Source: a virus. Taken from it: a stretch of 39,569 nucleotides of DNA. The notes beneath the pieces are model-generated. The model saw only the letters and a program-made list of their open reading frames with translations. It did no database searches and was not told the DNA's origin. Positions 4,584 to 28,040 of the stretch are shown piece by piece. Position numbers and translations under genes: made by a program. The stretch lies in IMG/VR virus record IMGVR_UViG_3300043313_000716, positions 1 to 39,569 of that record. One strand, 5' to 3'. Position 1 is the stretch's first letter; the number at the start of each line of letters is the position of its first letter.

Positions 4584-5631
4584 GACTACTCTGCAGGAAG
4601 ACATGGCAGCCGCCATCAGTGAACTTGAGGCCAAAGGGGATTCTACGGCCACTGAGTCCATTGATAAGGTAGAGCCAACGTCGCAGGAACGCGACGAGAC
4701 TGGCAAATTCAAATCTAAGGAAGAGAAAGAAGAAGTCAAGGATGAGATAAAAGAGCCTGAGGCAAAAGAGCCGGAAGCTAAGGAGCCTGAGTCTAAGCAA
4801 GAACCTCTAGGAGGAGATCCGGATAAACAGATCCTCTCGCAGGATAAGGCCCCATCCAGCTGGACTCCAAAAGCTCGTGAGTCATGGGCAGCCCTGCCAG
4901 AGAATGTCCGCCAAGAGGTACTTCGTCGGGAAGAAGACTCTATTAAGGGCATCAGACAGCTACAGGACCAAACTGCGCCCTACATGCAGTTTGCGCAAAC
5001 CCTGGAGCCCTTCATTAAAGAGGCCTTCGAAAATAAAGCGGACCCAGGACAATACATCGGCAATGTTATGCAGGCCGAGCGTCGTCTGCGCACAGGCACT
5101 GCCGAAGAAAGATTTAGTTCGCTTGTTGAAATTGCAGAAGGATACGGGATTCCGTTACGCAAGATTATTAACGACGCGGTCGGCCAGGAGATTATTCCTC
5201 ACCCGTCCATGAATCAGAATAAGCAGCAGATCCCAGCGGAAGTCCAGCGCGAATTGGAAGAGGCCCGCCAGTTCCGCCAGACTTATCAGTCTAGCCAGCA
5301 AGAGACTAATGCTAAGCTGATTGACGACTTCAGGAAAGACAAAGAGTTCTTTGAAGACGTCAGAGAGGATATGGCGGTCCTCATGGAAGCTGGTAGGGCC
5401 ACGACCCTAGATGATGCGTATACTAAGGCATGCCGCATGAACCCTGCGGTATGGGATGTCATTGCAGAGCGGGAATCTAAGCCAGCTCTGTCAGATAAGC
5501 AGAAAGCAGCGGCCAAACTCAAAGGCACTTCTTCAAACTCTGCCGAAACTGTCAACACCGACTTCGATGACGATGATGACACTGAGACCACTATTCGCAA
5601 GGCTATGGCGCAGTCGGCCGGGCGAATCTAA
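4576..5631 (+). CDS. Scaffolding protein
   Basis: A 351-residue, highly charged, mostly helical protein. The N-terminal third is rich in Glu, Lys and Pro (repeats of EPEAKE), the middle is Gln-rich, and the C-terminus contains a run of five Asp followed by a basic end. Composition, length and position upstream of the capsid gene fit a capsid assembly scaffold, which is lost or cleaved before packaging. The ATG at 4576 has AGGTG about 8 bases upstream and overlaps the previous gene by 8 bases. Confidence 0.78.
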   Translation: MTETTLQEDMAAAISELEAKGDSTATESIDKVEPTSQERDETGKFKSKEEKEEVKDEIKEPEAKEPEAKEPESKQEPLGGDPDKQILSQDKAPSSWTPKARESWAALPENVRQEVLRREEDSIKGIRQLQDQTAPYMQFAQTLEPFIKEAFENKADPGQYIGNVMQAERRLRTGTAEERFSSLVEIAEGYGIPLRKIINDAVGQEIIPHPSMNQNKQQIPAEVQRELEEARQFRQTYQSSQQETNAKLIDDFRKDKEFFEDVREDMAVLMEAGRATTLDDAYTKACRMNPAVWDVIAERESKPALSDKQKAAAKLKGTSSNSAETVNTDFDDDDDTETTIRKAMAQSAGRI

Positions 5632-5653
5632 CTGACAGAGGGAGGGCTTGCTC

Positions 5654-5953
5654 ATGGCGGCCGAAGGGTTAGAGGAAGTATTTTCAAGACTAGGTCGCCT
5701 TGAGCAAGATATGCATACGCTCAAATATAGAGCTGATGAGTTGGCCGAACACAATCTTCCAATACGAGTTGCTAACTTAGAGCCAGTCGTGAAGAGTGTC
5801 AGCTCCGATGTTGCAAAGATAGAGATCAGTACTGAGAAACTAGCTTCTGCTGTGGATAGCATGAAGAGCTGGGGGGTAGGATTCGCAGCAGCCCTTAGCT
5901 TCGTGCTTGTTTTGATCACTCTAGTCCCTATGCTGAGGGAGATCTTTAAATGA
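5654..5953 (+). CDS. XhlA-like membrane-anchored lysis protein
   Basis: A 99-residue protein with an N-terminal coiled-coil region (about 1-70) and one strong C-terminal membrane segment (about 74-95: GVGFAAALSFVLVLITLVPM). This layout is that of XhlA-type holin-associated proteins. It lies immediately before the endolysin and overlaps it by 4 bases. The ATG at 5654 follows a GAGGGAGGG ribosome-binding site; a TTG six bases upstream is less likely. It could instead be an inner-membrane spanin-like protein, but no outer-membrane partner is nested here. Confidence 0.55.
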   Translation: MAAEGLEEVFSRLGRLEQDMHTLKYRADELAEHNLPIRVANLEPVVKSVSSDVAKIEISTEKLASAVDSMKSWGVGFAAALSFVLVLITLVPMLREIFK

Positions 5954-6498
5954 AGACCGTTGATGATATCCTTAATGGAATCCTCGAAGTAGAGGGAGAA
6001 GCCTACACGGATGATCCGGCTGACAATGGAGGTCCGACTAAGTGGGGCTGGACTAAGAAAGCTTTGAGGGATATGGGGTGGTTTGGGGATGTTAGGAGTC
6101 TAGATAGGCAGACAGCCTTTGATCTCTACTATCGTAGATTCGTGACCAATTCAGGTTTTGAACCCATTGCAGCTCTTAGCAATAAGATTATGGCAGAGTT
6201 GGTTGATACAGCAGTCAATATGGGAGAGTCCTGGGCTGGCAACTTCCTGCAGACCAGCCTTAACGCCCTAAATAACGAACAGAAGATCTACCCTGATATA
6301 GTAGTAGATGGCAAGGTGGGCCCCAACACTATCAAAGTTCTGAAGAAATACCTGGACTATAGAGGTGATGGTGGAGAAGTCGTTATGCTGCGAGCCCTCA
6401 ACTGCCTACAGGGAGCTAGGTATCTATCTATAGCCGAGACCTCACCGAAGAACGAGCGCTTTGTCTACGGGTGGCTGGATAATAGGGTGGCAGTATGA
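5950..6498 (+). CDS. Endolysin, glycoside hydrolase 108 N-acetylmuramidase
   Basis: A 182-residue cell-wall hydrolase. The N-terminus has the GH108 catalytic region, with Glu15 in an EGEAY variant of the usual EGGY motif, followed by DDPADNGGPTKWGWT. The C-terminal half fits the peptidoglycan-binding domain normally found with GH108 (DGKVGPNTIKVL). Length is normal for the family. There is no signal peptide or membrane anchor, so release through a holin is expected. ATGA overlap with the upstream lysis gene. Confidence 0.87.
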   Translation: MKTVDDILNGILEVEGEAYTDDPADNGGPTKWGWTKKALRDMGWFGDVRSLDRQTAFDLYYRRFVTNSGFEPIAALSNKIMAELVDTAVNMGESWAGNFLQTSLNALNNEQKIYPDIVVDGKVGPNTIKVLKKYLDYRGDGGEVVMLRALNCLQGARYLSIAETSPKNERFVYGWLDNRVAV

Positions 6499-6752
6499 AT
6501 GATTCCCTTAATCGGTGGCTCACTAACCGTGGGTTCACTGGAAACTTAGCTGACAAGACTAAGCAATATCTAATGACAGTCGTTCCCGGATCCACTGGAT
6601 CGGAAACAGTAAATGATCTTTGGGTAAGCTGGGCCGCATTGAATGGGCTGGGCGGAGCAGAAATGCAAAGAATACAAAGGAGCTGGGCGATCCTACAGGG
6701 CTCGAACGGATCCCAAACTTGGAATGATGCCATGAGCACCCTTCCACCATAG
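6495..6752 (+). CDS. Small protein of unknown function after the endolysin
   Basis: An 85-residue protein whose start overlaps the endolysin stop by 4 bases. It is rich in Trp, Asn, Ser and Gly and has no membrane segment or recognised motif. Its place between endolysin and holin suggests a lysis or virion role, but nothing in the sequence decides this. It may be a small structural protein, since the next gene also looks structural. Confidence 0.55.
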   Translation: MNDSLNRWLTNRGFTGNLADKTKQYLMTVVPGSTGSETVNDLWVSWAALNGLGGAEMQRIQRSWAILQGSNGSQTWNDAMSTLPP

Positions 6753-6761
6753 GAGAATATC

Positions 6762-7337
6762 GTGGCCTCAGAAGTCTTTCCAAATGTGCCGAACGGGCTA
6801 TTCTCAGGTACGAGAGCCATTACCTCACAGAATTATACCGAGGCTAATGTCAAAAATGGATTGCAGTTTGAGGCCGCGTCTGCCATAACAAGCCTCGCCG
6901 TCGCGGGGTTTCTTGATGTTATATTCATTACTGGCAGCAAGCCAGTCATAGTCAAGGGGCGTAATATAAAGTTCAATGGTCTACTATTATCCGTAAGGGT
7001 ATATAGGGCCCCCACCTATACTGGCGGAACCCCCCTAAGCGCGTTTAATCTAAATGATATTGCCCCGATCGCCTCTACAGTCACTATTCTCGGGGGCGCT
7101 GTAGTCACTAATGTCGGCACCGAGTTCGGGGCGCCGACGTTTGAGATTGGCTCTAGTGGCGGTAAGGATGCTCCAGCCTCTACCTATTCTGTATCGGGCA
7201 TTGAGCGAATACTCCGCCCCAATACCACTTATCTACAAAGAACCCTTAATATTGATGTGGCGGTACAAAGTGTATGCAGCGCGCTCACTTGGTACGAGGG
7301 GCCGACAGATCTTCCAATCACTGGACCATTGCCATGA
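6762..7337 (+). CDS. Putative virion structural protein
   Basis: A 191-residue beta-rich protein without Cys until the C-terminus, rich in Gly, Thr, Val and Ile, as expected of a capsid-accessory or minor tail protein. It starts with GTG at 6762, supported by AGGAGA 6 bases upstream. It ends in a 4-base overlap with the holin-like gene. No family is recognised with confidence; the structural role is inferred from composition and context. Confidence 0.5.
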   Translation: MASEVFPNVPNGLFSGTRAITSQNYTEANVKNGLQFEAASAITSLAVAGFLDVIFITGSKPVIVKGRNIKFNGLLLSVRVYRAPTYTGGTPLSAFNLNDIAPIASTVTILGGAVVTNVGTEFGAPTFEIGSSGGKDAPASTYSVSGIERILRPNTTYLQRTLNIDVAVQSVCSALTWYEGPTDLPITGPLP

Positions 7338-7753
7338 ATCCTCTTCTACTTAGTAGCATCTTTTCTATGGGGCAAGGTCTCATAGATAAACTGTTCCCCG
7401 ATCCAGTAGATAAACTGAAGGCACAGACTGAACTGGCCCAGATGCAGCAGAGCGGGGAGCTCCAGGCGCTGACTGTGCAGATGTCGGCCATTATTGCTGA
7501 GGCGCAGAGCCCGGATCCGTGGACTAGTCGCGCACGCCCCATGTTCATGTATGTATTCTATACCATCATCCTCTTCATGACGATGGTAGGGCCAATGCTG
7601 GGCATCTTCTTTCCTGATAAGATGGATCTATTCTTCAGTAACGTCAGCAAAGGATTTGCCGCCATCCCAGAAGATCTGTGGTGGACCTTCTCCGCTGGCT
7701 ATCTCGGGTATGCTGGCTTGCGTACTGTAGAGAAGAATCGCGGCACAGCATAA
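7334..7753 (+). CDS. Holin of the three-TM / gene-transfer-agent-release type
   Basis: A 139-residue membrane protein. After a charged N-terminal helix (LIDKLFPDPVDKLKAQTELAQ) and the SRARPMFMYVFY segment there is a strong membrane span near 75-97 and a second hydrophobic region near 112-128 (WWTFSAGYLGYAGLRTVEK). The order 'PDPWTSRARP' plus hydrophobic segments is that of the holin_3TMs family, which forms membrane lesions for endolysin release. The ATG at 7334 overlaps the previous stop. With the XhlA-like gene at 5654 it makes two candidate membrane lysis proteins in one cassette. Confidence 0.7.
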   Translation: MNPLLLSSIFSMGQGLIDKLFPDPVDKLKAQTELAQMQQSGELQALTVQMSAIIAEAQSPDPWTSRARPMFMYVFYTIILFMTMVGPMLGIFFPDKMDLFFSNVSKGFAAIPEDLWWTFSAGYLGYAGLRTVEKNRGTA

Positions 7754-7759
7754 ATAAAT

Positions 7760-7788
7760 TTGCATCAATGCATGAACAGTGGTACTAT
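7760..7788 (+). promoter_or_regulatory. Sigma-70-like promoter before the major capsid gene
   Basis: TTGCAT (7760-7765) and TACTAT (7783-7788) are separated by 17 bp. The sequence GTGGTAC at 7779-7785 is one mismatch from the GTGGCAC operator found at other promoters and sits across the spacer/-10 boundary as in those. It would give an extra transcript for the highly expressed capsid genes. A lone TATAAT at 7868-7873 has no good -35 box. Confidence 0.5.
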
Positions 7789-7834
7789 ACCAGCTAACAG
7801 TCCCTCGGACCTAAGCTAACCTTAGATCCTGCGA

Positions 7835-7889
7835 GCTCACCTCGTACGAGACCAAGCAATCCTGAGGTATAATTCTTTCCGAGGTGAGC
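7835..7889 (+). promoter_or_regulatory. Inverted repeat that can hide the capsid ribosome-binding site
   Basis: GCTCACCTCG (7835-7844) is the exact reverse complement of CGAGGTGAGC (7880-7889), and the second arm contains the GAGGTGA ribosome-binding site of the capsid gene. In RNA this would be a 10-bp stem with a 35-base loop. A second self-complementary element, CTCGTACGAG (7841-7850), overlaps the first arm and could compete. Control of capsid translation is an inference. Confidence 0.5.
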
Positions 7890-7892
7890 CAA

Positions 7893-8867
7893 ATGGCCTT
7901 TCCGAACGTAAGCGATATCATCGCTACTACCATCGAGAAACGTAGTCGCAAAATTGCGGACAACGTTACTAAGAACAATGGTCTACTCTCCAAGCTGAAG
8001 CAGAAGGGCAAAGCCCGTCCGTTCAGCGGCGGCCGTCTCATCTACGAAGAACTGAGTTTTGCTGAAAACGGCAACGCTGGGTTCTACAGTGGTTACGATC
8101 TTCTGCCTGTTAATGCACAGGATGTTCTCACCGCCGCTCAGTTTGATATCAAACAAGCAGCGTGCCCAGTGGTCATCAGCGGCCTGGAACAACTCCAGAA
8201 CGCGGGCCCAGAGCAGATGATTGATTTGCTGACCGCTCGTATCGATGTTGCAGAAGCCACCATGCAAAACCTCATTTCCGGCGGCCTGTATTCAGACGGT
8301 ACTGGTTACGGCGGCAAGGAAATCACCGGACTGAACTCCGCGATCCCAAACACCGTCACTGCCTCGCAGACTAACGTCTACGGCGGCATCGACCGTACCA
8401 CTTGGGCTTTCTGGCGTACTCAGTCGGTCGATCCAGGCAACTACACCAACATGCTCGCCAACATGAACGCCCTCTGGGCTCGTCTGGTTCGCGGCATGGA
8501 TCGCCCAGACCTGATCATTGCTGACTCCCTGTCGTGGGCCCAGTATGTCGGTCTGCTGAGCGCTCTCCAACGCTTCACTGCCGCCGACGGATCTGGCACA
8601 GCGGGCTTCGGCTTCCCAACTGTCAAGTTCATGGATGCTGACATGATGCTGGATGGGGGTATCGGCGGCTTCGGCGCTGCCAACACCATGTACTTCCTCA
8701 ATACGAAGTACATCCACTTCCGTCCTCATAGCGCTCGTAACTTCGTGCCTCTCAGCCCGAACAAGCGCTACTCCATCAACCAAGACGCCGAAGTGCAGAT
8801 TCTTGCATGGGCGGGGAACCTGACCTGTTCTGGGGCCCAATTCCAAGGCCGCATTGAGTTCGCGTAA
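7893..8867 (+). CDS. Major capsid protein
   Basis: A 324-residue protein and the most likely HK97-fold major capsid protein: it follows scaffold and lysis genes, is Gly/Asn/Ala-rich, and contains the pattern GMDRPDLIIADSLSWAQYVG and a C-terminal RYSINQDAEVQILAWAGNLT region typical of podovirus-like capsid proteins. Codons here end more often in C or G than in neighbouring genes, consistent with high expression. The ATG at 7893 has a strong GAGGTGA site 5 bases upstream; a GTG start inside that site is rejected. Confidence 0.88.
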   Translation: MAFPNVSDIIATTIEKRSRKIADNVTKNNGLLSKLKQKGKARPFSGGRLIYEELSFAENGNAGFYSGYDLLPVNAQDVLTAAQFDIKQAACPVVISGLEQLQNAGPEQMIDLLTARIDVAEATMQNLISGGLYSDGTGYGGKEITGLNSAIPNTVTASQTNVYGGIDRTTWAFWRTQSVDPGNYTNMLANMNALWARLVRGMDRPDLIIADSLSWAQYVGLLSALQRFTAADGSGTAGFGFPTVKFMDADMMLDGGIGGFGAANTMYFLNTKYIHFRPHSARNFVPLSPNKRYSINQDAEVQILAWAGNLTCSGAQFQGRIEFA

Positions 8868-8899
8868 GCGGACTCTTTGTCCTTAATCGGAGAACTATC

Positions 8900-9442
8900 A
8901 TGTACGAGATGGGCATTGATCCTACCCAAGTTAAGACGGCCACGGACGGTCCGGCCTTCATTCTGGGTACTCTCGGCGCCAACGCCGGGACTTCCACCAT
9001 GTACACTGCCCCAATGGGCACTACAGGGTCCACAGCAGGCACCAACGTCGGCCCCAAAGCTTACGTCTACTGCAAATCGGCAGCGGGCGTGACTGCTGGT
9101 AACGTCGTGCTTATTGACGGCACCACTACAGACGCAGTAGCTGCCTCGGCGACTACTGGTGCGGCTGGCACAGGTATGGGCAAGCAGCTCGGAGTTGTTG
9201 TCGGCACCATCGCCGCCAACGGGTTCGGCTGGGTCCAAGTGTACGGCAAGGCGACCTTCCTGGTCGTGGCAGCTACTGCCGCCAACTCGCCAGTTTCGCT
9301 CGGGGCAACTGCCGGGGCATTCGATGACCTGACCACTACTGGCTCTATCACCGTAACTGGTGTGCAGATCCAAGCGGTGAACAGCACCACCGGCACAGGG
9401 TTCCTGAACTGGCCGCACCTCGTGGTAGATGATGTAACGTAA
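8900..9442 (+). CDS. Probable capsid decoration / head stabilisation protein
   Basis: A 180-residue Ala/Gly/Thr/Val-rich, beta-rich protein with few charged residues, directly after the capsid gene and with the same high-expression codon style. Such proteins (compare the decoration proteins that follow capsid genes in many phages) coat the capsid surface. GGAG lies 10 bases before the ATG. The role is inferred from composition and position. Confidence 0.6.
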   Translation: MYEMGIDPTQVKTATDGPAFILGTLGANAGTSTMYTAPMGTTGSTAGTNVGPKAYVYCKSAAGVTAGNVVLIDGTTTDAVAASATTGAAGTGMGKQLGVVVGTIAANGFGWVQVYGKATFLVVAATAANSPVSLGATAGAFDDLTTTGSITVTGVQIQAVNSTTGTGFLNWPHLVVDDVT

Positions 9443-9456
9443 TCAACCAGCGCCAA

Positions 9457-9477
9457 GGCCAAGGATGGCCACTTTTT
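9457..9477 (+). terminator. Weak terminator/attenuator after the capsid pair
   Basis: GGCCA (9457-9461) and TGGCC (9466-9470) form a 5-bp stem with a 4-base loop, followed by AC and five Ts (9473-9477). The stem is short, so partial termination or message-end stabilisation is more likely than full termination; the next gene begins only 12 bases later. Confidence 0.35.
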
Positions 9478-9488
9478 AGGGAATAGAG

Positions 9489-9731
9489 ATGATTATTACA
9501 GTGATTGGCTACGACGACTTCAAATTGCTCACCGGCACTTTCGGCGCGCCCACTTATTCGGTCTTTGCGGGTGGATTTGCAGGGGCCCCGCAGACCACGA
9601 AAGTGGCCTACGCGTTCTATGCTGATGGTTTGTGTGTTAAGATCACCATGAACGCGGCTGTTTCCACCGCCCAATTCCAGATCGATTTCCCATCGGCGGT
9701 AGAGCTGCAGAATATGCTGGCGTTCTCCTAA
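9489..9731 (+). CDS. Small protein in the head gene cluster
   Basis: An 80-residue protein with an AGGGAATAGAG leader just upstream of the ATG. It is rich in Phe, Ala and Gly with no recognised motif. Position between capsid-decoration and head-tail genes suggests a minor head protein, but its function is unknown. Confidence 0.55.
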   Translation: MIITVIGYDDFKLLTGTFGAPTYSVFAGGFAGAPQTTKVAYAFYADGLCVKITMNAAVSTAQFQIDFPSAVELQNMLAFS

Positions 9732-13186: not shown

Positions 13187-14011
13187 ATGAGTGGAGGAGG
13201 AAAGGGCGCAAAAACAGCGAAAGCCCCTGACTATACCGCGCTTGCTGAGCAGCAGGGTCAGATCAACCAAAACGCGGCCAATGCCCAGACATCAGCTAAT
13301 CGCCCAACCCAGATAAATGCTCAGGGCAATACTCTTCAGTGGTCTCAGGGACCTGATGGTAAGTGGACTCAACAGGTTATACTTACTCCTGAGAACAAGG
13401 CCGCTCAGGATACGGCAACCTGGAAGGGAAATGCGAATAATGATGATTATTCCACCCTTCTCCACAATTATCTTTCTACTTACAAAGCCCCTGTAGACTC
13501 TAGAGATCCCCAATTTAGCGGTAAGACAGTATCAGATGCCTTGTATGGATCTGTCATGGATCGTGGCAGAGTAGAGCAGCAGCGCGAGAGTGATTCTCTA
13601 ACCTCACAATTACGTAATTCAGGTCTCCAGCCCGGTAGTGAAGCCTACGACCGCGCCATGAAGAATCTGATGACCAGTCAGAATGATGCTAATTTGCTGG
13701 CTGGGCAGAACGCAACTCTGGCGGGGGCTAATGAAGCTAGAGCACAGTACGCATCTTACCTCACAGGAAGAAACCAGCCTGTAAATGAGTTAACAAGTCT
13801 TGGCGGAATGGCTGGACAATCTCAGGCCACCTCTACTCCCACTTTCCAGGGATTTAGTGGGGCTACAGGGTACAACCCAACCGATTTGGTGGGGGCTGCT
13901 CAAGCTCAGTACGGCGCTAGTCAGCAAGGGGCCAACGCTCAGAACTCTAAGAAAAGTGGCTTGATGGGCGCTGGCGCAAGCCTCGGCGGCAGCTATCTGG
14001 GGAGTAAGTGA
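13187..14011 (+). CDS. Internal virion / tail-associated protein
   Basis: A 274-residue protein rich in Gln, Asn, Ala, Ser and Gly, without enzymatic motifs. Its N-terminus is basic (GGGKGAKTAKAP) and the C-terminus Gly/Ala-rich. It is the first of a run of low-complexity proteins leading to the transglycosylase protein, an arrangement typical of ejection proteins. GGAG-type sites lie before the ATG. The assignment is from context. Confidence 0.55.
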   Translation: MSGGGKGAKTAKAPDYTALAEQQGQINQNAANAQTSANRPTQINAQGNTLQWSQGPDGKWTQQVILTPENKAAQDTATWKGNANNDDYSTLLHNYLSTYKAPVDSRDPQFSGKTVSDALYGSVMDRGRVEQQRESDSLTSQLRNSGLQPGSEAYDRAMKNLMTSQNDANLLAGQNATLAGANEARAQYASYLTGRNQPVNELTSLGGMAGQSQATSTPTFQGFSGATGYNPTDLVGAAQAQYGASQQGANAQNSKKSGLMGAGASLGGSYLGSK

Positions 14012-14700
14012 TGGACTATCAGGCGATGGCCCAACAACTCAGAGCTACTAGACAAGCTGATCAACAGAAGAATGATCAGCAAGTACAGTCTGGAGGCGCT
14101 GCTATGTCCAGCGGCGGAATAGTGGGGCAAGGGAACACTATGTTTCAGTCTGGAGGGTACGCCCCTCAGACTCAGCAGCAGACTCAGCAGAACCCATTGC
14201 AGACTGGTCTGGATGCCTATAATAAGTATAAGAGTCTAGCCCCGGCATCCACCACCGGGGCATTTGCCGGAGCTACTCCGGCCACGATGTCGGCCATGGA
14301 AGCTGGTGGCGGCAGCAGCCTAGGCAGCATGGGCTTGATGTCCAGCGCGCCAGCCGTGAGTTATCCTGGGGCTACGGCAGCGGGTGGCAGTGCAGGTGGG
14401 GCGGGTGCTGGCGGCAGTGCTTCTAGCGGCGCTATGGGCAGCGCTGGGGGTCTAGCGGGATTAGCGGCATTAGGCTATCTTGCGGATAAAGAAATGAATG
14501 GAAGTAAGGACAGTTTCATAAACACAGATAAACTCAATAACTCCGGCTCTATCGGCGGTAGCGGCATCGGCCTTAGATTTGGGGACTTTGCCAACGGATT
14601 CAACCCGGCCACTTGGGCCAGAAATCCTAAGCAGGGAGCCAAGAGTCTGGTCAATGCGTTCACTTTCGGCCTCGGCGATAAGTTCTTTGATCTGTTTTAA
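14011..14700 (+). CDS. Gly/Ala/Gln-rich internal virion protein
   Basis: A 229-residue protein. The first 80 residues are Gln-rich (TQQQTQQNPLQ), followed by Gly/Ala/Ser-rich low-complexity sequence (about 110-150) with membrane-active potential, and a C-terminus FGLGDKFFDLF. Start ATG shares a base with the previous stop (TGATG). Such Ala/Gly-rich segments are common in phage ejection proteins that cross the cell envelope; the role is inferred. Confidence 0.55.
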   Translation: MDYQAMAQQLRATRQADQQKNDQQVQSGGAAMSSGGIVGQGNTMFQSGGYAPQTQQQTQQNPLQTGLDAYNKYKSLAPASTTGAFAGATPATMSAMEAGGGSSLGSMGLMSSAPAVSYPGATAAGGSAGGAGAGGSASSGAMGSAGGLAGLAALGYLADKEMNGSKDSFINTDKLNNSGSIGGSGIGLRFGDFANGFNPATWARNPKQGAKSLVNAFTFGLGDKFFDLF

Positions 14701-14710
14701 GGAGTGATGT

Positions 14711-15973
14711 ATGGGACCCTTTGATCCACCGATGGTGACAGGTCAGGGATATAATGATCCTTCGCAGCCGACTGTAGGAGCCCCCACCGCTCCCATGGAT
14801 CAGAACGCCATGCTGGCAGAACTCCTGCGCCGCCGCAATGCAGCTTCTAAACAGGCTGAGTTATCAGCAGGCAATGCCCAGCAATACGGCTCCATGTTCC
14901 AGAATCCCCAGTTCCAGCAGACCATTCGTGGCTCTAACGGGAACCCAGACATGGTCCAGGCTAACTGGGGGGATATCTTGGGTAAGGGTATCTCTAATTA
15001 CATGGGGGCCAAGGAGCGAAAACAGGCTATCGACAGTAAACAGCAAGTGAATGAAATAAACAATGAATTCATGCAGACCACACTGCGCGATGACCCTCAG
15101 GCCACCAAGCTCTATGGGGCTGTGCAGGCAGGAGTCCCGGGAGCTGGGCAAGCCCTGTCTGCCCACTTGGCGCCTAAGAAACAGGCTATGGCGGTGGCCG
15201 TGCAGGCAATCACTAGCGGTATGCTGGATCCTGAGATGGCATATCAGATGGCCCCTCAGTATGGGCTGGACCCGAATGTCATGCGTAAGGCCGCTGAATA
15301 CGCTGCGACCAAGAAGCAGGAAGCTGAGAACTCCAAATTTGCAGATAAGTCCGCAATAGAAAATCAGAAAATTGAAGGCAAGCAAGCTCTGCAATCTAGT
15401 AAGCCCACTGCCAGCGGGTATACCCCAGCCGAGCTGGCGGCCATGCCTATTGAGCAGCGCTTGGCAGCAGTGCAGGCTGCCTCTGGGCGTGAAACTGCTG
15501 AATCTAAACTTCGTGGAAAAGCTAAGATTAACGCTGAGCAGCAACTGCCCAAGACCCAGTATGCTCTGGATAACATTAACCGGGTAATAGGGCTGGCTGA
15601 GAAGGCTGATTATTGGCCCGGAAACCTTGGCCTCAAGGCAAATAAGGTGACCACCAACCCGAATAACGTCAACCTGCGCCAAGCTCTGTATCAACTCACC
15701 TTGGATGCTAACAACGGTAGTCTCGGGACTGGGTTCTCCAACGCCGACCGAGACTTCTTGCTCGGTGCTCAGGCAGATATCGAGTCCGGCAACGTAAAGA
15801 CTGTCACCTCTCAATTGCGTAACTTGATCGTCAGACTCAAGCAGAAACAGGAGAGCTTTCAGAGAGAAGCGGCGGGAGGAAAGACCCCTATGCCATCAAC
15901 TTCATCGAACGCTGCTCCTAGTGGACCAGCGTTCGATGATATGTTCCCCGCTGGGACATTCCCAGGTGAGTAG
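14711..15973 (+). CDS. Internal virion (ejection) protein
   Basis: A 420-residue, mainly helical protein rich in Ala, Gln and Met. A region near 280-350 (LPKTQYALDNINRVIGLAEKADYWPGNLG ... GFSNADRDFLLGAQADIESG) resembles a segment found in phage DNA-ejection proteins. GGAG lies 6 bases before the ATG. The gene ends overlapping the transglycosylase gene. Confidence 0.6.
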   Translation: MGPFDPPMVTGQGYNDPSQPTVGAPTAPMDQNAMLAELLRRRNAASKQAELSAGNAQQYGSMFQNPQFQQTIRGSNGNPDMVQANWGDILGKGISNYMGAKERKQAIDSKQQVNEINNEFMQTTLRDDPQATKLYGAVQAGVPGAGQALSAHLAPKKQAMAVAVQAITSGMLDPEMAYQMAPQYGLDPNVMRKAAEYAATKKQEAENSKFADKSAIENQKIEGKQALQSSKPTASGYTPAELAAMPIEQRLAAVQAASGRETAESKLRGKAKINAEQQLPKTQYALDNINRVIGLAEKADYWPGNLGLKANKVTTNPNNVNLRQALYQLTLDANNGSLGTGFSNADRDFLLGAQADIESGNVKTVTSQLRNLIVRLKQKQESFQREAAGGKTPMPSTSSNAAPSGPAFDDMFPAGTFPGE

Positions 15974-19164: not shown

Positions 19165-19194
19165 GCACAAAGCCCCGCGTGCGGGGCTTTGTGC
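19165..19194. terminator. Strong bidirectional terminator between converging operons
   Basis: GCACAAAGCCCCGC (19165-19178) and GCGGGGCTTTGTGC (19181-19194) are perfect reverse complements, giving a GC-rich hairpin of at least 12 bp whose own arms supply T-rich 3' ends on both strands. It lies between the last late gene (plus, ends 19157) and the modification operon (minus, ends 19201), and should end transcripts from both sides. Confidence 0.9.
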
Positions 19195-19200
19195 TGAGCG

Positions 19201-19491
19201 CTATTCCTGTGGGGCGGCCATATGAGACTCCACCAGAAGCAGATAGCGCCTCAGGTCCTGGATATCATCCAAAAGGCCATCTGGCTCTCCCCCAGCTAAG
19301 ATGGCCTCGAAGATATCGTATCCCTGAGCTTTACATTGATTCTCCAACCGGTCCCACTTGCGCGCCAGCATCATAAAAGCGCCTACGCCCCCACGGTTCC
19401 GCCAGCTAGACCCGTAGGCCTTGCCCTTCTGCTCTAAGACTGCTACATCGTCAAAGGCTATGCGCTGCATATTCTCGTAGTCTTCGATCAT
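19201..19491 (-). CDS. Nmad1-like (DUF1599-type) nucleotide-modification-associated protein
   Basis: A 96-residue protein. The core reads KAYGSSW, then GGVGAFMMLARKWDRLE, and ends with LLDDIQDLRRYLLLVES; the order 'YG.sW ... K..Rle ... DD..DlrrYl' resembles DUF1599/Nmad1, a small domain known to associate with phage base-modification genes. ATG at 19491 overlaps the stop of the HD gene (ATGA) and has GGAG 8 bases upstream; the in-frame ATG at 19509 lacks a site. It is the last gene of the modification operon. The family call is by pattern and moderate; the biochemical role is unknown. Confidence 0.5.
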   Translation of the reverse strand: MIEDYENMQRIAFDDVAVLEQKGKAYGSSWRNRGGVGAFMMLARKWDRLENQCKAQGYDIFEAILAGGEPDGLLDDIQDLRRYLLLVESHMAAPQE

Positions 19492-20018
19492 TTGTGGCTC
19501 CAGTGCCATTCGGTCAGTGTGAGTTGTACCAACTCGGCGGCAGGACCGCCGCCAAGTGCCGGGAGCTGAGAATTGAGATAGCTGGCGTAGTTCTCGCCCA
19601 CTTCCTCAATCGTGTAGTTCCCCATACGTTTCTCCTCAATGCACTTGAGGAGACCATCAAGGTTATCGGCGGTCTTAAGTAGAAGATACTCCCAGTCAGT
19701 CAGTTTGTACTGGCAGTTGTAGTGCACTTCCTCCATGGCTCTATCTTCTAAAGCATTCAACAGACCGACCACGTCCGAGCCCAGCCCTTTCTTCACTGGG
19801 CTCGGAATATCCCCAGTAGCATACTCCCCCATGTCGTGCGCCATGGCCGACATTATGAGCTCAGCTCTCAGGATCCCCCCGGTCATTATCATCAGCAAGT
19901 TGATCAGTCCGAAAGTATGTTCCGCAACATTCTCCGGCTTCGTCAAAAATTGAGTATGATATCGAGTTACCCGCCCAGCTCTCCGCGCTAAATGTGCCCG
20001 TTCCAGTGTAGTCTTCAT
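19488..20018 (-). CDS. HD-domain deoxynucleotide phosphohydrolase (YfbR-like)
   Basis: A 176-residue metal-dependent phosphohydrolase. Metal-binding residues are visible: His34 in AEHT, His61-Asp62 in AMAHDMGEYATGD, and a distal Asp in LLLKTADNLDGL. The GDIPSPVKK segment is typical of YfbR-type 5'-deoxynucleotidases and related phage HD enzymes. In a phage with a modified base such enzymes remove the competing canonical nucleotide (for example dTMP or a dNTP). The ATG at 20018 overlaps the upstream stop by 4 bases, with GGGAA upstream. Substrate is not predictable from sequence; a DatZ-type dATPase is discussed and set aside. Confidence 0.75.
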   Translation of the reverse strand: MKTTLERAHLARRAGRVTRYHTQFLTKPENVAEHTFGLINLLMIMTGGILRAELIMSAMAHDMGEYATGDIPSPVKKGLGSDVVGLLNALEDRAMEEVHYNCQYKLTDWEYLLLKTADNLDGLLKCIEEKRMGNYTIEEVGENYASYLNSQLPALGGGPAAELVQLTLTEWHWSHK

Positions 20019-21052
20019 TTTGTTCCCTTTTTGAATAGAGCTCGGCTGTACCACTGCACGATGGCGAGGCGCCAGTCATACGCATCAATGCATTCTGCAA
20101 TATCAATAGCTTCTTGATAGTTGCCAGCCTTCCACTCCCGCCAGCTAGCCCAAGCTGGCTCGACAGTCTCCTCCAGAAACGGTTCTGTAAATCCTTCTGT
20201 CTTCCCATTACACAGCTCCTCACACTCTTTGAGGAAGGTGCGCCAGTTGACCACCATAGGCTTCCGCTTTGGCGGAGTGAGGACGCCAGCGTATTTCTCC
20301 CAAGGTACTGAGCCCTGATGCACTTCATCGGCAATCCTCTTCACCAGTGGCCAGTGCTTTTCGTACACGTGCAGGTTGTTAGTGATGTGGTGCCAAGCCC
20401 CGCATTTAACGCCCAGAGCGTCTGCCATAAATTCCTGCAGCATGGTAAGGTGTACGGCATTGGCCCCACACAGGCCCCACACAAGGTCGTTGCTGCGGTT
20501 AATGATGGTGAAGTCAAGGCGGTCGTACTGAGTCATGCCGTCAGGGCTATCCTTGCGACTGAACGAGGGCATAATCATCATATTGCACGGGAAGTCCTTT
20601 CCCCCCCTGCCGTTGCCATCCTCTCTGGCATCCCACATACTGATGATAGCCCGCCGATCGTTGGGATCTTCATCAAGCATTTCTATACACTTAGTGATCT
20701 GATCCACACTAAAGTGGTTACGCCAGCGATGGCCGTAAGCTGCATGAAACACAGCGCCGTCATCAGAATAGGATTCAATATTGGAATTGAATTGCTGAAC
20801 AAAGCCAACATCATTGCGGCCAGCGAGCATCCAAATTGACTCCATAAGATGGAATACATGATTACAGTTCCGGTCCTGGTCAAAGAGTACCCTTTCCCAT
20901 GGTTCTCGTACTGTAATGGCCTGTACTCCTTTGAATTTCCTGGCTTTTCCATTGCGGGTCTCCACTATCTCTGAGAACTTGGGGTCCATGATGCGGTAGC
21001 AGAGATTCCGCCACATACCGCGTAGATCAGTAAACTCTCTGGTAACTAGCAT
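20015..21052 (-). CDS. Thymidylate-synthase-fold enzyme, probable dUMP hydroxymethylase
   Basis: A 345-residue enzyme of the thymidylate synthase / deoxynucleotide hydroxymethylase superfamily. The nucleophile is Cys156 in KDFPCN, the phosphate-binding Arg is Arg186 in RSND, a base-recognition Asn is at 198 in WGLCGAN, and the NNLHVY (His228, Tyr230) element is intact. An Asn rather than Asp at 198 favours dUMP over dCMP. PCN replaces the PCH usual in thymidylate synthases. Surrounded by base-modification genes, it most likely makes 5-hydroxymethyl-dUMP; plain dTMP synthesis remains possible. Its start shares a base with the previous stop (TAATG). Confidence 0.78.
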   Translation of the reverse strand: MLVTREFTDLRGMWRNLCYRIMDPKFSEIVETRNGKARKFKGVQAITVREPWERVLFDQDRNCNHVFHLMESIWMLAGRNDVGFVQQFNSNIESYSDDGAVFHAAYGHRWRNHFSVDQITKCIEMLDEDPNDRRAIISMWDAREDGNGRGGKDFPCNMMIMPSFSRKDSPDGMTQYDRLDFTIINRSNDLVWGLCGANAVHLTMLQEFMADALGVKCGAWHHITNNLHVYEKHWPLVKRIADEVHQGSVPWEKYAGVLTPPKRKPMVVNWRTFLKECEELCNGKTEGFTEPFLEETVEPAWASWREWKAGNYQEAIDIAECIDAYDWRLAIVQWYSRALFKKGTK

Positions 21053-21912
21053 TATTCACCTCTTTTGTAGTAACGGCGGCGGAAGGTCTTCTGCGCGGTA
21101 GTTTGGCGACTCAGGCGCATGTACTTGGCGAACTCACACAGGCAGTTCTGCAAGTCCTGAGCGTGAAGCTCCATGTCCCATATATCATCTGGCATGTCGT
21201 TGTAGAGCTCAGTAATGCGTCCCATGAAGTTGCGCTTGGTGGTCTTCTCTTCATACAGGAAGTCAAGCCCCTGCATACTGCCTGGACCGGGGCAGCACCA
21301 ATCCTTCTCAGCTGCTGCGGCTACTAGATAGCGGTCATTGCGCAGATCGGCTATGACTTGGCCAGCCAAGAACCCTGTGCCGCCAAGGCCAGGTATAGAG
21401 CTCAGCGCAGCGTGGGCATTGGCAAGCGAGTCGGTGGGAATAATCACTCTCTGCGCCGCCAACACCAGACGTAGGACGTAGTCTATCTTATCCATTGCCT
21501 CACCAGCGGTACTCACTACATAGGCCGGATTGAAGATCTTATTACCAGCGTCACGATACTCCTTCAGCTGAGCAAAGGATTCCTCAATGGTGGCCCCATG
21601 ATCAGTGGCCAGCAGGATACGCTCCAGCGTAGGGGCATGGTTAAAGAGCCGAGCCATGAGGTAGATAGTTGGAAGACAGCTGATGGAGGCAATGTCATCT
21701 TCCTCTACAGGGAAGTAATGCCGCACTACATCGCGAATTTCCTTGGTTCCACGGTCGTCTTCACGACGAACATTGCAGAAGTGGTAAGTGTTGAGGATAT
21801 GATCGTCAGAGTATCCCCCCTCAATTCCTTCTGGGTACTTTTCTTTGAGCAGGCGTACCTGCTCTCTGGCTCGTATCCAGTACCAGAATGTATTCAGTGC
21901 TTCTGCGTTCAT
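21052..21912 (-). CDS. Stand-alone aGPT-pyrophosphorylase / hmdU-kinase-helical-domain protein
   Basis: A 286-residue protein of the family named for alpha-glutamyl/putrescinyl-thymine pyrophosphorylases, whose all-helical DNA-glycosylase-like domain is also found fused to 5-hmdU DNA kinases. Visible marks, in order: NTFWYWIRARE (7-17), SDDHILNTYHFCNVRREDDR (35-54), KIFNPAYVVSTAG, GGTGFLAGQVIADL, CPGPGSMQGL and LQNCLCEFAKY near the C-terminus. There is no P-loop kinase domain. It lies one base downstream of the glycosyltransferase stop, and its own stop overlaps the synthase-like gene. It probably acts on hmU in DNA, but the exact reaction is open. Confidence 0.75.
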   Translation of the reverse strand: MNAEALNTFWYWIRAREQVRLLKEKYPEGIEGGYSDDHILNTYHFCNVRREDDRGTKEIRDVVRHYFPVEEDDIASISCLPTIYLMARLFNHAPTLERILLATDHGATIEESFAQLKEYRDAGNKIFNPAYVVSTAGEAMDKIDYVLRLVLAAQRVIIPTDSLANAHAALSSIPGLGGTGFLAGQVIADLRNDRYLVAAAAEKDWCCPGPGSMQGLDFLYEEKTTKRNFMGRITELYNDMPDDIWDMELHAQDLQNCLCEFAKYMRLSRQTTAQKTFRRRYYKRGE

Positions 21913-21913
21913 G

Positions 21914-23155
21914 CTATACCCCAGCGAAAAAGTGTTGTAGGGCTTGATAGCCTTTGACCTTAACGTCTTCTGACAGAACTCCTCGTTGCTCGCATAGATC
22001 CCCCATGCCAAGGTCTATGAATCTCTGCGCAATTGCTTTGCGCTCGAATTTCCGCAGGAGTTGGCGACCATTGTGGGTGACCTCCTCATATACCCCCCAA
22101 CTCATATTAGCCAAGTATCCTACTGCCTCCCCAAACTCTTGGGGGGTAGAGTTCCATGGTACTGTGAAGCAGTTGCGCCCAGCTTGGAACAGGTCGTCTG
22201 GACTGCCCCCAATCCCCAAGTCCCGAGCTATGGGCACAGCGCCCTGAAGAATGGCATCCACCATTACTCTGTTAAAATGCGCTCCAATGGCCCCATATTT
22301 CTTGGACCAACTCGCATCTATAAGAGTCGTTACTTTGCGCAGAGTGGCATCTCGCCAACTATTACTCACTACACCTACGTAGTCCATGCCAGCCTCAAGC
22401 GCTGCATCCCAAATCCCAGGGTACTTGCACTTGTCCTTGCTTGTCAAATAGTAGTAGTCTATGCCCTTACCGGCCAGCACCTTGGCAATATTGCCCATGT
22501 AGGGTATTGCAGCGCAAAGCTCTGGGACGCGCTTCCACGCCTTAAAGGTCTGCACGCTCAGGAACCCCGGTCTCCGCGCTTGGAAAGACTCTTTATCTAT
22601 TGGTGCCGGGTTGCTGATGTCGAATGGGTTAAGGATGAGAGCCGACGGGACGTTAATATGCCTAGCAGAGTTGAATGCGCAAGTATGGACGCATGCAAGG
22701 CCCGTAAGTCTATTTCCGACCAAGTGCAGCCAAGGGTAGGAATCAAGGAAATTCCCGTCATGGATAACAGCGACCTGCGGAACGTCGCAGTTATACAGTC
22801 CGATCCAGTCAGTGTTGCCAGCATTCTCTGCTCGTTTGGTAGGAACTGCCACTTGCCAGATGATGAGATCAAAGCCACTTGCATACTCCTTCCATCGCGC
22901 TAAGTTCTCAGAGCCTTGGTACGGGATAATGTTATCAGAAGTCCAGGAGAATCCCTTACGCTGGTCGTACAGAAGACCGCTGTGGCCGTAATCATCATTG
23001 CCGCCAGCCACTGAGCGCGGAGCGGTTGGTCGCCACATCAGTAGTTTGGTAGTCACTTCATGACCAAGCTCTTGGAGCCCAGCGCATAGCTGTTCGTGAT
23101 GATTAATGATTCCGCCCATGTCGTCAATGGGGAAGAACGTTATTAGTATCTTCAT
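21914..23155 (-). CDS. GT-B (GT4-like) glycosyltransferase, probable DNA-base modifying
   Basis: A 413-residue glycosyltransferase. The N-terminal Rossmann half opens with KILITFFPIDDMGGIINHHE and ELGHEVT, the glycine loop and helix of GT4-type enzymes; the C-terminal half has SVQTFKAWKR and a GAHFNRVMVDAILQGAVPIA element like the nucleotide-sugar site (E/D...EA...G.P). It is the first gene of the modification operon, with GGAGA about 10 bases before the ATG. In context it likely transfers a sugar from a nucleotide-sugar to a hydroxymethylated base in DNA; modification of a host surface glycan is the alternative. Confidence 0.75.
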   Translation of the reverse strand: MKILITFFPIDDMGGIINHHEQLCAGLQELGHEVTTKLLMWRPTAPRSVAGGNDDYGHSGLLYDQRKGFSWTSDNIIPYQGSENLARWKEYASGFDLIIWQVAVPTKRAENAGNTDWIGLYNCDVPQVAVIHDGNFLDSYPWLHLVGNRLTGLACVHTCAFNSARHINVPSALILNPFDISNPAPIDKESFQARRPGFLSVQTFKAWKRVPELCAAIPYMGNIAKVLAGKGIDYYYLTSKDKCKYPGIWDAALEAGMDYVGVVSNSWRDATLRKVTTLIDASWSKKYGAIGAHFNRVMVDAILQGAVPIARDLGIGGSPDDLFQAGRNCFTVPWNSTPQEFGEAVGYLANMSWGVYEEVTHNGRQLLRKFERKAIAQRFIDLGMGDLCEQRGVLSEDVKVKGYQALQHFFAGV

Positions 23156-23221: not shown

Positions 23222-23722
23222 TTATTCAATGCTTACCGACTGGTCGCCGTTGATGTACCAGACGAGGTACGTGTGGCCGACCGATTTGCCACCAGCAGCA
23301 GCGTAGAAGTCAGCCACTGTGATGCCCGGAGTTACTAGATCGAAGAACTCTTTACGCTTGCTGCCGTCACGGTAGCCTGCGCCCTTGCCCTCAACTTTGT
23401 TCAGCACCTGGGTGTCCAGGAAGACATTGCTGCCACGAGGCCCGCGAGGAGCTTTCGGAGCCTTGAATGCTGTCTCTTTTGGGCCGAGGACAGGAGTGGT
23501 GCCGTCCTCTTCGAACTTCTGGGTGCCGTCCTCATTTGCCTGAGGGTATTGCTTAGGAGCTTTTGGCTCTTTCGGAGCCTTCGGTTCCTTGGGAGCTTTC
23601 TCGGCTTTGGGCGCGCCGTCCAGGGTCTTTTTCACTCGCTCCTTCTTGGCTGCTGGGACTTCTACGCCAGCAGTGGCTTGAGCGGCTTCGGCCAAGAGTT
23701 CATCAACAGTCTTGTCAGTCAT
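23222..23722 (-). CDS. Lys/Pro-rich linker protein of unknown function
   Basis: A 166-residue protein. Residues about 25-60 are a low-complexity (A/E)PK repeat (KAPKEPKAPKEPKAPK), probably an extended linker or DNA-contacting arm. The C-terminal part (VLNKVEGKGAGYRDGSKRKEFFDLVTPGITVADFY ... HTYLVWYINGDQSVSIE) looks like a small folded domain. It is transcribed from its own predicted promoter at 23770-23798 and preceded by AAAGGTG. The basic linker and folded domain suggest a DNA-binding or histone-like protein, but I do not recognise a family. Confidence 0.55.
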   Translation of the reverse strand: MTDKTVDELLAEAAQATAGVEVPAAKKERVKKTLDGAPKAEKAPKEPKAPKEPKAPKQYPQANEDGTQKFEEDGTTPVLGPKETAFKAPKAPRGPRGSNVFLDTQVLNKVEGKGAGYRDGSKRKEFFDLVTPGITVADFYAAAGGKSVGHTYLVWYINGDQSVSIE

Positions 23723-26099: not shown

Positions 26100-26241
26100 T
26101 TAGCCATACCCCATTCAGTGAGTACTTCCCATACCAGTCTCCCAGACGGAATACAATGGTCCCGTCCATGGGCAACAGAACTTTCTGGTCAGCCCATGGC
26201 CCCCCACAGACTTCCAGCATTTGGCGCTTGGACTTCTTCAT
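26092..26241 (-). CDS. Small conserved-looking protein between polymerase and RecB-like gene
   Basis: A 49-residue basic protein beginning MKKSKRQMLEVCGG and continuing with an VLLPMDGTIVFRLGDWYGKY segment. Its ATG overlaps the polymerase stop (ATGA) and it ends 8 bases inside the RecB-like gene, so it fills the gap in a tightly packed operon. No known motif beyond short beta-strand-like segments. It is too short for usual gene thresholds but its couplings support it. Confidence 0.6.
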   Translation of the reverse strand: MKKSKRQMLEVCGGPWADQKVLLPMDGTIVFRLGDWYGKYSLNGVWLNV

Positions 26242-28040
26242 GAGGGCTTAGCCTCTCCCCACTGAGCGCCATAGTCAACATCGAAGATCATCGGCACGTC
26301 GCATGGAAGATAGTTAGCGGCTTCTTGGTAGATTTCAGTGATATAATCCACATCCTTCTCGAAGACGCTAGAGTTAATTTCGTCGTGTACCGGCACCAAT
26401 ATCCGGCCGCCAGTGGCCGTGATCCTAGGATCCAAGTAGATCATGGCCTCCTTACCTTGGTCGGCTGCGCTACCCTGGATCAGAGTGTTAAGCGCTTTAT
26501 AATCCCATGTACCTCCCCAAGGGCTGGATCCCGGCTCGCAGTAATAGATACGCCCGCCAAGGGTCTTAATTGGCAGCCCATGCTGAAACCGCTTCTTGCA
26601 GTCAGAGTCCAGATCTACTACGTCCACCAACATTGACTTGATTGTGTCGCGCAGATACTTGGCTCGCTCCTTGGCGCAGTCAAGTTTCTTGGCCAACGCA
26701 TCCAGACCCATGGAATATACCAGACCCAGGAAGATCTGCTTGGCTTCATGGCGGGTGACATCTCCACCAACCAAGTTCTTAACCCACTGATAACAATCGA
26801 GGAATGGCTCATCTATGTACGCCTGCATAAGCGCGCCACACTCAAAGTGCGCGGTCAGGCGCGGCTCTTGCGACTTAAAGTCACCACAAAACCAAACCTG
26901 ACCGATCTCAGGTAGCAGATAAGTACGCATATCTGGGAAGGGCTCGCCCCAGAAGTCAAGACCTTGATCTTTTGGAACGTTCTGCCCGTTAGGGTCGCTA
27001 GAAGATAGACGTCCTGTGCGAGTTCCAAAGCCATCTGGGTTTCGCACCTGATGATACGAGGGGTGAATTCTCCCTCCGTTGGATTGACAATAGCGAAGCC
27101 ACGGCTCCATGAAGGTCCCGATGAGCGTATCGTAAGTACTCCTAGATGCCAAAAGGCTTTTAAGCTTTGGATCATTTTCAAGGACGGCCTCCAGGCTGGG
27201 CTTGCCCATAGAGTACTTGCCTTTCGGCGTTAGTAGGAATCCTTCATAGCCAAGCTCTAAGAGCCGAGCGCACAGCGCTGCATCCTTGACCACGAAATCG
27301 GGGCCAACCCGCAAATGCTCGCGTATAAGCTGATCCAACAGAGCGCGCTTGATATTGGCCTTATGGCAGTCATCCTTAAGCCGCGCCTCATCAACCCTGA
27401 TCCCCTGATTCTGCATACGGCTGAGGATGGGGGCCAGTGTGCGCTCTCGGTTATACGGCTCCAGCTGATCTTGTATGGTGGGCTTGTTGAACTCGTGCAG
27501 CTCTCTGGTGCGGTATATGTCCCCGACAGCATAGGGGCCAGACATGCTTACTGGGGTATCCGCAATGTATGCGCCGGCCTCTGAGCGCTTAGCTCCTGGG
27601 ACATTGGCCACAATCCAGTCGTACATGTCTTGCTGCTCGTCCGGCGCAATTCCCAGCCAGTCGTTGGCCAGATCCTTCAGTGAAAGGGATCTCGCGTGCG
27701 GGTTGTTGAGGTACGACGAGAAGAGGGTGTCGTGCGTAAGTAATGGGTCGCGTTCAGGCAGGTCGAAGTGATGAGCAAGAACAGGAATATCAAAAATAAG
27801 GCCGTTGTGAGTGATGAAGATTTCATCCCAGTACTTGAGAAGCACTTCACGCGCCTGCTCCTTAGTGCAATTGTTGCCTTCTGGATGGCCCCACGCCAGA
27901 TACACTCGCTGAGTGCTTCCATCAGCCTGCGGTATGCCCAGCGCCACGCCTACGGGCACGGCTGCGTAAATAGGGGCGCCCTTAATGATCTTGGTAGATT
28001 CAATATCGAGCTCAATTTCTAAGCGCTCAGTGCCTATCAT
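26238..28040 (-). CDS. polA: Family A DNA polymerase with 3'-5' exonuclease domain
   Basis: A 600-residue replicative polymerase. The exonuclease shows LDIE (Asp12, Glu14), THNGLIFD (Asp84) and a Tyr170/Asp174 motif. In the polymerase domain, TGRLSSSDPNGQN is at 342-354, motif A DFKSQE starts with Asp387, motif B is RHEAKQIFLGLVYSMG (Lys434, Tyr442), and motif C is VHDE (His552-Asp553). The residue aligned with E. coli Phe762 is Leu438. Gly of the usual YG is Ser443. There is no 5'-3' exonuclease domain. Start ATG overlaps the stop of a 29-residue peptide gene and has AGGGG upstream. Confidence 0.95.
   Translation of the reverse strand: MIGTERLEIELDIESTKIIKGAPIYAAVPVGVALGIPQADGSTQRVYLAWGHPEGNNCTKEQAREVLLKYWDEIFITHNGLIFDIPVLAHHFDLPERDPLLTHDTLFSSYLNNPHARSLSLKDLANDWLGIAPDEQQDMYDWIVANVPGAKRSEAGAYIADTPVSMSGPYAVGDIYRTRELHEFNKPTIQDQLEPYNRERTLAPILSRMQNQGIRVDEARLKDDCHKANIKRALLDQLIREHLRVGPDFVVKDAALCARLLELGYEGFLLTPKGKYSMGKPSLEAVLENDPKLKSLLASRSTYDTLIGTFMEPWLRYCQSNGGRIHPSYHQVRNPDGFGTRTGRLSSSDPNGQNVPKDQGLDFWGEPFPDMRTYLLPEIGQVWFCGDFKSQEPRLTAHFECGALMQAYIDEPFLDCYQWVKNLVGGDVTRHEAKQIFLGLVYSMGLDALAKKLDCAKERAKYLRDTIKSMLVDVVDLDSDCKKRFQHGLPIKTLGGRIYYCEPGSSPWGGTWDYKALNTLIQGSAADQGKEAMIYLDPRITATGGRILVPVHDEINSSVFEKDVDYITEIYQEAANYLPCDVPMIFDVDYGAQWGEAKPS

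Follow-up and report, generated by a model that had tools for sequence, protein, structure and literature searches.

The DNA analysed here is the 39,569-nt record IMGVR_UViG_3300043313_000716 (the window), a tailed-phage genome with terminase, portal and head genes, and we give a probability of roughly three in four to the reading that a compact operon on its minus strand replaces thymine by 5-hydroxymethyluracil (hmU) and then adds a sugar in DNA. In this operon a GT-B glycosyltransferase stands where known thymidine-modifying phages carry a 5-hydroxymethyldeoxyuridine (5-hmdU) DNA kinase. An initial annotation had placed five packed minus-strand genes at 19201-23155, which was borne out, with all open reading frames (ORFs) found at these coordinates. 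The five genes and the polymerase gene of the window are given below; labels such as L001, L003 and L015 denote surveyed relatives and reference records.

21914..23155, minus strand: GT-B glycosyltransferase (GT), 413 aa, GT4-like, filling the slot of the 5-hmdU DNA kinase
21052..21912, minus strand: HMUDK_hel protein (hel; older name aGPT-Pplase1), 286 aa, all-helical, PF18723
20015..21052, minus strand: thymidylate-synthase-family enzyme (TS), 345 aa, PF00303, predicted dUMP hydroxymethylase
19488..20018, minus strand: HD-domain YfbR-like 5'-deoxynucleotidase (HD), 176 aa, PF12917
19201..19509, minus strand: small conserved protein, 102 aa, with homologues in 32 of 72 GT loci and in Pam3
26238..28040, minus strand: family A DNA polymerase (PolA), PF00476, E 2.2e-39, context, outside the operon

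In M6, Pam3 and Sonora a P-loop kinase lies directly before hel, as confirmed with PF18748 (5-hmdU DNA kinase) in M6 and Pam3. The gene order in M6 is kinase and hel followed at an interval by TS and HD, and that in PaMx11 is gp49 P-loop NTPase, gp50 hel, gp51 TS and gp52 HD, with gp49 matching PF18748 below the cut-off. The P-loop proteins adjoining hel in M6 (L005 7686-8249) and PaMx11 (L172 6218-6787) have been deposited as 'terminase small subunit'; the M6 protein matches PF18748 despite this annotation. ViI produced strong matches to both PF18748 and PF18724, the amino-acid:DNA transferase, and M6, Pam3, ViI and PaMx11 all have both kinase and transferase (the PaMx11 kinase being sub-cut-off). 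While M6 and Pam3 were positive for both families, the same searches gave no PF18748 or PF18724 match for the window and two relatives (L001, L003). The 5-hmdU DNA kinase acts on DNA with a preference for TG/TC (PMC7653180, PMC6449724). With respect to the kinase route of M6, PaMx11 and ViI, the window has in common hel, a TS-fold enzyme of the hydroxymethylase type, HD and PolA (the latter in M6 and PaMx11) in the same order, but differs in being without PF18748 and PF18724 and in having GT-B in the kinase slot. The order GT-hel-TS-HD-small gene is repeated in L003, whose hel and TS are only 42-46% identical to those of the window, and this recurrence at such a distance argues that the order is not due to chance.

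No Pfam model matched the window GT above cut-off, its relatives L119 and L162 pass PF00534 (Glycos_transf_1), and the profile of the DNA glycosyltransferase family TAGT (PF20691) had no match in the window. The AlphaFold model of GT (pLDDT 90.7, pTM 0.90) has a GT-B fold, as the initial annotation had proposed. Comparison of the model by VIA gave Z scores of about 26 for GT4-type enzymes, with matches including HepE, PimA and TarM, and a Z of 25.8 over 343 residues for T4 alpha-glucosyltransferase (AGT), among the longest alignments listed; the likeness to AGT is structural, with sequence identity of just 11-13%, and the AGT entries matched in the PDB include complexes with HMU-containing DNA. 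GT4-type enzymes ranked first in Foldseek (E about 1e-11), and the second match in BFVD was a glycosyltransferase of phage SP-15 (E 4e-13). A search of PDB sequences with the GT profile returned weak matches only. GT is predicted to be a 5-hmU DNA glycosyltransferase. An enzyme of the serotype-conversion type, modifying an acceptor other than DNA, for instance the host surface, and present in the operon by accident, would be in keeping with the lipid, teichoic-acid and small-molecule GT4 enzymes among the top structural matches, but we consider it highly improbable given that loci found from GT alone carry hel (69/72) and TS (69/72) within 6 kb flanks and on the same strand, and that in one slot GT alternates with a DNA kinase and with a family of DNA glycosyltransferases.

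These GT loci were collected from IMG/VR with the GT alignment alone, because loci should not be chosen by hel; the scan gave 71 loci which, with one Flavobacteriaceae metagenome-assembled contig, make up the 72. Besides hel and TS, their flanks held PolA (61), HD (58) and the small gene (32), and the amino-acid transferase was found in none of the 72 sets of fetched flanks. The order was hel-GT-TS in 53 loci and GT-hel-TS in 13, and wherever hel was present (69 loci) it lay on the same strand as GT and TS. As in the hel survey described below, many near-copies are included and counts are not independent. Seven matches to the kinase profile in the GT loci were rejected as five helicase-type and two APS-kinase-type ORFs, one of each type having been scanned in Pfam and the others judged from sequence. 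Searching 50,697 phage records by tblastn with the window GT and the L013 GT produced no match, so that this GT is known from no isolate in that set; nucleotide-level comparison of the operon DNA with phage records was also blank.

The survey from hel led to the same slot. Among the candidates examined in a scan of IMG/VR with the hel alignment there were 529 relatives. The 80 best loci were retained, and the gene adjoining hel served to classify 90 hel genes (these 80 and others from further loci). The neighbour was a protein of about 265 aa, classed as TAGT, in 48 cases, a kinase in 17, a member of the window GT class in 9 and of another GT-like class in 3, the remainder being of other or unclear class. 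All four of the ~265-aa neighbours that were scanned proved to be TAGT (PF20691, E down to 2.8e-16), a known family of DNA glycosyltransferases (PMC13216743, PMC13390438), and the two scanned against PHROGs both fell in phrog_842, named DNA glucosyltransferase. The amino-acid transferase profile was matched in 8/17 kinase loci versus 0/59 others (Fisher p about 1e-6), and TS was present in 75/76 classified hel loci. On the hel tree the partner label must have changed no fewer than 14 times, and the TAGT-bearing L015 comes out as sister of the window (SH-aLRT 97). These two are 83% identical in polymerase, 84% in helicase, 84% in TS and 75% in hel, and yet L015 has TAGT and the window GT-B in one and the same slot; TAGT was also found in the L016 and LuckyBarnes records. 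The partner gene beside hel has been swapped repeatedly, and the swap is widespread.

Variants of the slot were also seen. Other glycosyltransferase-like proteins adjoin hel in L022, L034, L071 and L093 (that of L022, when scanned, had no Pfam match), and further GT classes may use the slot. In L083 (6197-7980) hel is separated from a TAGT gene by a radical-SAM/SPASM gene, which suggests a further step.

The hel protein matched PF18723 (HMUDK_hel) with E 4.2e-32 and 112.1 bits (cut-off 25), residues 4-271 aligning to profile positions 2-278. The assignment of 21052-21912 to the aGPT-pyrophosphorylase/HMUDK family in the initial annotation was thereby confirmed, aGPT-Pplase being the older predicted name of the family and HMUDK_hel its current Pfam name. 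For the AlphaFold model (pLDDT 92.3) the top match in VIA was 8z2n, the PaMx11 5-PmdU glycinyltransferase (Z 10.6, 209 residues), followed by DNA glycosylases of the HhH type (AGOG, Z 8.6), and these best matches fit a protein that handles a flipped base. The hel profile found nothing meaningful among PDB sequences. Fifteen residues are invariant across 46 hel proteins from kinase, TAGT and GT contexts, consistent with one common role in all of them. The hel protein is most likely a base-recognition or base-flipping partner of the adjoining enzyme. Fusions of hel to kinase, GT or TAGT were absent among the proteins of the set, and physical pairing of hel with its partners is therefore not shown by fusion.

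The initial annotation had instead given hel an extra pyrophosphorylase-like step, in which hmU would pass through an activated, pyrophosphate-type intermediate ahead of glycosylation or alongside it. Deposited records do annotate the family as alpha-glutamyl/putrescinyl thymine pyrophosphorylase, and the nearest solved structure to hel is a transferase acting on phosphorylated hmU; against this, the window and its relatives have neither a 5-hmdU DNA kinase to supply a phosphorylated substrate nor the amino-acid transferase that would use one, and hel adjoins glycosyltransferases in most surveyed loci. With a hel model that appears to be of DNA-glycosylase type and to lie near the 5-PmdU glycinyltransferase, we regard such a step as unsupported and very unlikely. 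A broader reading of base flipping is held tentatively, with doubt slightly outweighing belief: hel would be an adaptor for interchangeable hmU enzymes (kinase, TAGT, GT-B and perhaps others), one-gene swaps would change thymine chemistry within a single phage lineage, and many phages would carry glycosylated hmU as their equivalent of base J.

The TS matched PF00303 (E 2.6e-22) and contains Cys156 and Asn198, in agreement with the TS-fold enzyme of the initial annotation. Cys156 is kept in 96/96 homologues and Asn198 in 95/96, the PCN motif being equally common, and Asn198 argues for dUMP as substrate. The protein shares about 40% identity with the enzymes of PaMx11 and M6, and M6 phage DNA bears an hmU-derived base (PMC6449724). 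Its closest PDB match was the CMP 5-hydroxymethylase MilA (E 9e-19), with thymidylate synthases at 1e-9. The MilA match, the kinship with M6 and PaMx11 and the conservation of Cys, Asn and PCN together favour, but do not prove, hmdUMP as product, and TS is predicted to be a dUMP hydroxymethylase making hmdUMP.

Two other activities were weighed for this enzyme. One is synthesis of a different precursor, either 5-hmdCMP or a pyrimidine hydroxylated directly at position 5 as in Mosigvirus, which would then receive the sugar; we consider this very unlikely. TS homologues making 5-hydroxy-dCMP do occur in phages with arabinosylated DNA (PMC13390438) and TAGT acts on the hydroxymethylcytosine DNA of T-even phages (PMC13216743), but Asn198 and the PCN motif are common to TS and the M6-type enzymes of thymidine-modifying phages, and hel occurs with hmU-modifying kinases. 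That TS is an ordinary thymidylate synthase, with normal thymine and with hel and GT doing something else, is very unlikely; hydroxymethylases are not safely told from thymidylate synthases by sequence (PMC5977210), but the nearest phage enzymes come from M6/PaMx11-type phages, the nearest structure is that of the MilA hydroxymethylase, and 75 of the 76 classified hel loci carry the same TS.

The HD deoxynucleotidase of the initial annotation was likewise recovered, with a match to the YfbR-like family PF12917 (E 4.4e-16, 59.5 bits, cut-off 25.9), to YfbR in the PDB (2paq, E 1.7e-7) and 27% identity to PaMx11 gp52. It is predicted from these similarities to remove a competing deoxynucleoside monophosphate, probably dTMP. 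The small protein is 49.5% identical to a gene of Pseudanabaena phage Pam3 annotated 'nucleotide modification'; with no relevant Pfam match in any of 14 homologues, the 'Nmad1-like' label given to it earlier comes down to that Pam3 annotation. PaMx11 gp53 was rejected as a counterpart of the small gene, as the two are not homologous.

In the preferred reading, that of sugar-bearing hmU, TS would convert dUMP to hmdUMP and HD would deplete the rival deoxynucleotide, probably dTMP. The hmdUMP would be raised to the triphosphate by kinases for which no gene was identified in the window, and the phage PolA-type polymerase would build the hmdU nucleotide into DNA. There hel would recognise and flip hmU, perhaps in sequence context, for the adjoining enzyme, and the GT-B enzyme would move a sugar from a nucleotide-sugar onto the hydroxymethyl group in the finished DNA. 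What was observed comprises the protein families and their folds, the synteny, the repeated swapping of partners and the absence of kinase and transferase; the chemistry at each step, which sugar is attached and through what linkage, how much of T is modified and what hel does are inferred. Sugar-bearing hmU had also been the product expected in the initial annotation, and this expectation is supported, as are an hmdUMP-synthase-type TS, HD and GT-B. That interpretation is supported as to a locus for thymidine hypermodification and unsupported in its pyrophosphorylase step and Nmad1 label, and it had missed the replacement of the kinase by GT.

Several points weigh against the pathway as drawn. 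The record is a metagenomic contig. GT4-type enzymes act mostly on lipids, sugars and proteins, and fold likeness cannot give the acceptor of GT. Foldseek gave no significant match for hel (E above 0.001), and a Z of about 10 is moderate for a helical protein of this kind. Nor is hel indispensable everywhere, as the TAGT-TS-HD locus of MW202897 is without a detectable hel; in this record (L097, 8001-10299) TAGT lies beside a pyrimidine hydroxymethylase and HD, and hel was not detected in 40 kb. Finally, partners are not strictly exclusive, since four loci (L158, L160, L161, L168), some of them from phages as large as 238 kb, have GT-B, TAGT and hel together. GT-B plus TAGT in one locus might mean two sugars, possibly a disaccharide. 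An APS-kinase-like gene is also present upstream in L161 and L168.

Among known systems comparable to the predicted pathway, T-even phages, in which 5-hydroxymethylcytosine is glucosylated by alpha-GT and beta-GT (T4) or TAGT (T6), likewise make a hydroxymethylated pyrimidine precursor and then use a DNA glycosyltransferase, but in the window the base is expected to be uracil instead of cytosine and hel is an added partner. Base J of kinetoplastids is the same type of product, glycosylated 5-hydroxymethyluracil, made by oxidation of thymine in DNA by JBP1/2 and amounting to about 1% of T (PMC6449724), whereas hmU in the window would be supplied through the nucleotide pool and may stand in for much of T. 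DNA of Bacillus phage SP-15 contains a glucosylated hypermodified uracil encoded by a larger gene cluster with a flavin-dependent TS (PMC5977210); it shares with the expected product a sugar-bearing modified uracil, but the base side chain (dihydroxypentyluracil), the bigger cluster and the flavin-dependent TS set it apart. Brevibacterium phage LuckyBarnes (L095, NC_047851) has overlapping TS-TAGT-TAGT-hel genes at 5562-9577, in which kinase PF18748 and transferase PF18724 were not detected by profile. It follows the same logic of TS-fold enzyme, DNA glycosyltransferase and hel, with two copies of TAGT (GT-A fold according to PMC13216743) in contrast to GT-B in the window, and as a cultured phage it makes the TAGT sister version directly testable.

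In 2019 there was as yet no report of glucosylated 5hmdU from a phage (PMC6449724), and a 2026 count found solitary TAGTs of unknown role in 288/753 phage genomes (PMC13216743), for part of which the TAGT-hel loci are a candidate answer. The individual components of the operon are of known kinds, but phages with this layout are not known to bear a glycosylated thymine. As far as the literature shows, the novelty lies in a hel/TS module whose kinase slot is occupied by a glycosyltransferase, and in how broadly this arrangement occurs, an earlier mention in the hypermodification literature being possible. GT-B is a second GT family, unrelated to TAGT, in the same slot at 71 IMG/VR loci. If the reading is true, a base-J-like thymine would have evolved in phages by a nucleotide-pool route, the HMUDK_hel family would gain a testable role, and the set of DNA-sugar-adding enzymes would grow.

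The junctions of the operon were read from the sequence. The GT stop codon TAG is separated by 1 base from the hel ATG, the hel/TS junction is TAATG and TS and HD overlap in ATGA, so that the overlaps and one-base gap noted at the outset were all seen. HD and the small gene share 22 nt, and use of an internal ATG would tighten this overlap to ATGA. Scans of the operon region found no minus-strand terminator and promoter-like sites at no more than chance level. One element was located by script directly past the last gene:

19166..19193, strand not applicable: inverted repeat, 28 nt, CACAAAGCCCCGCGTGCGGGGCTTTGTG

The strand around it folds at -29 kcal/mol, and the repeat is a possible end-of-operon hairpin; it was omitted by the terminator scan because it has no T run.

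The major head protein of the window is 71% identical to its counterpart in Stenotrophomonas phage BUCT555 (L096, MW291508), the isolate closest to the window in this protein. At 13954-15328 this phage has adenylosuccinate-synthetase and DUF550 genes, which suggests a 2-aminoadenine pathway, and hel was not detected in it; related phages may change which base is modified. Upstream of GT, the window gene at 23222-23722 has a Lys/Pro/Ala-rich start with KAPKEPK repeats, and the C-terminal end of its product can be aligned to L002, though not to L015 and L016, both TAGT-bearing relatives. In L014 a similarly charged gene sits upstream of hel.

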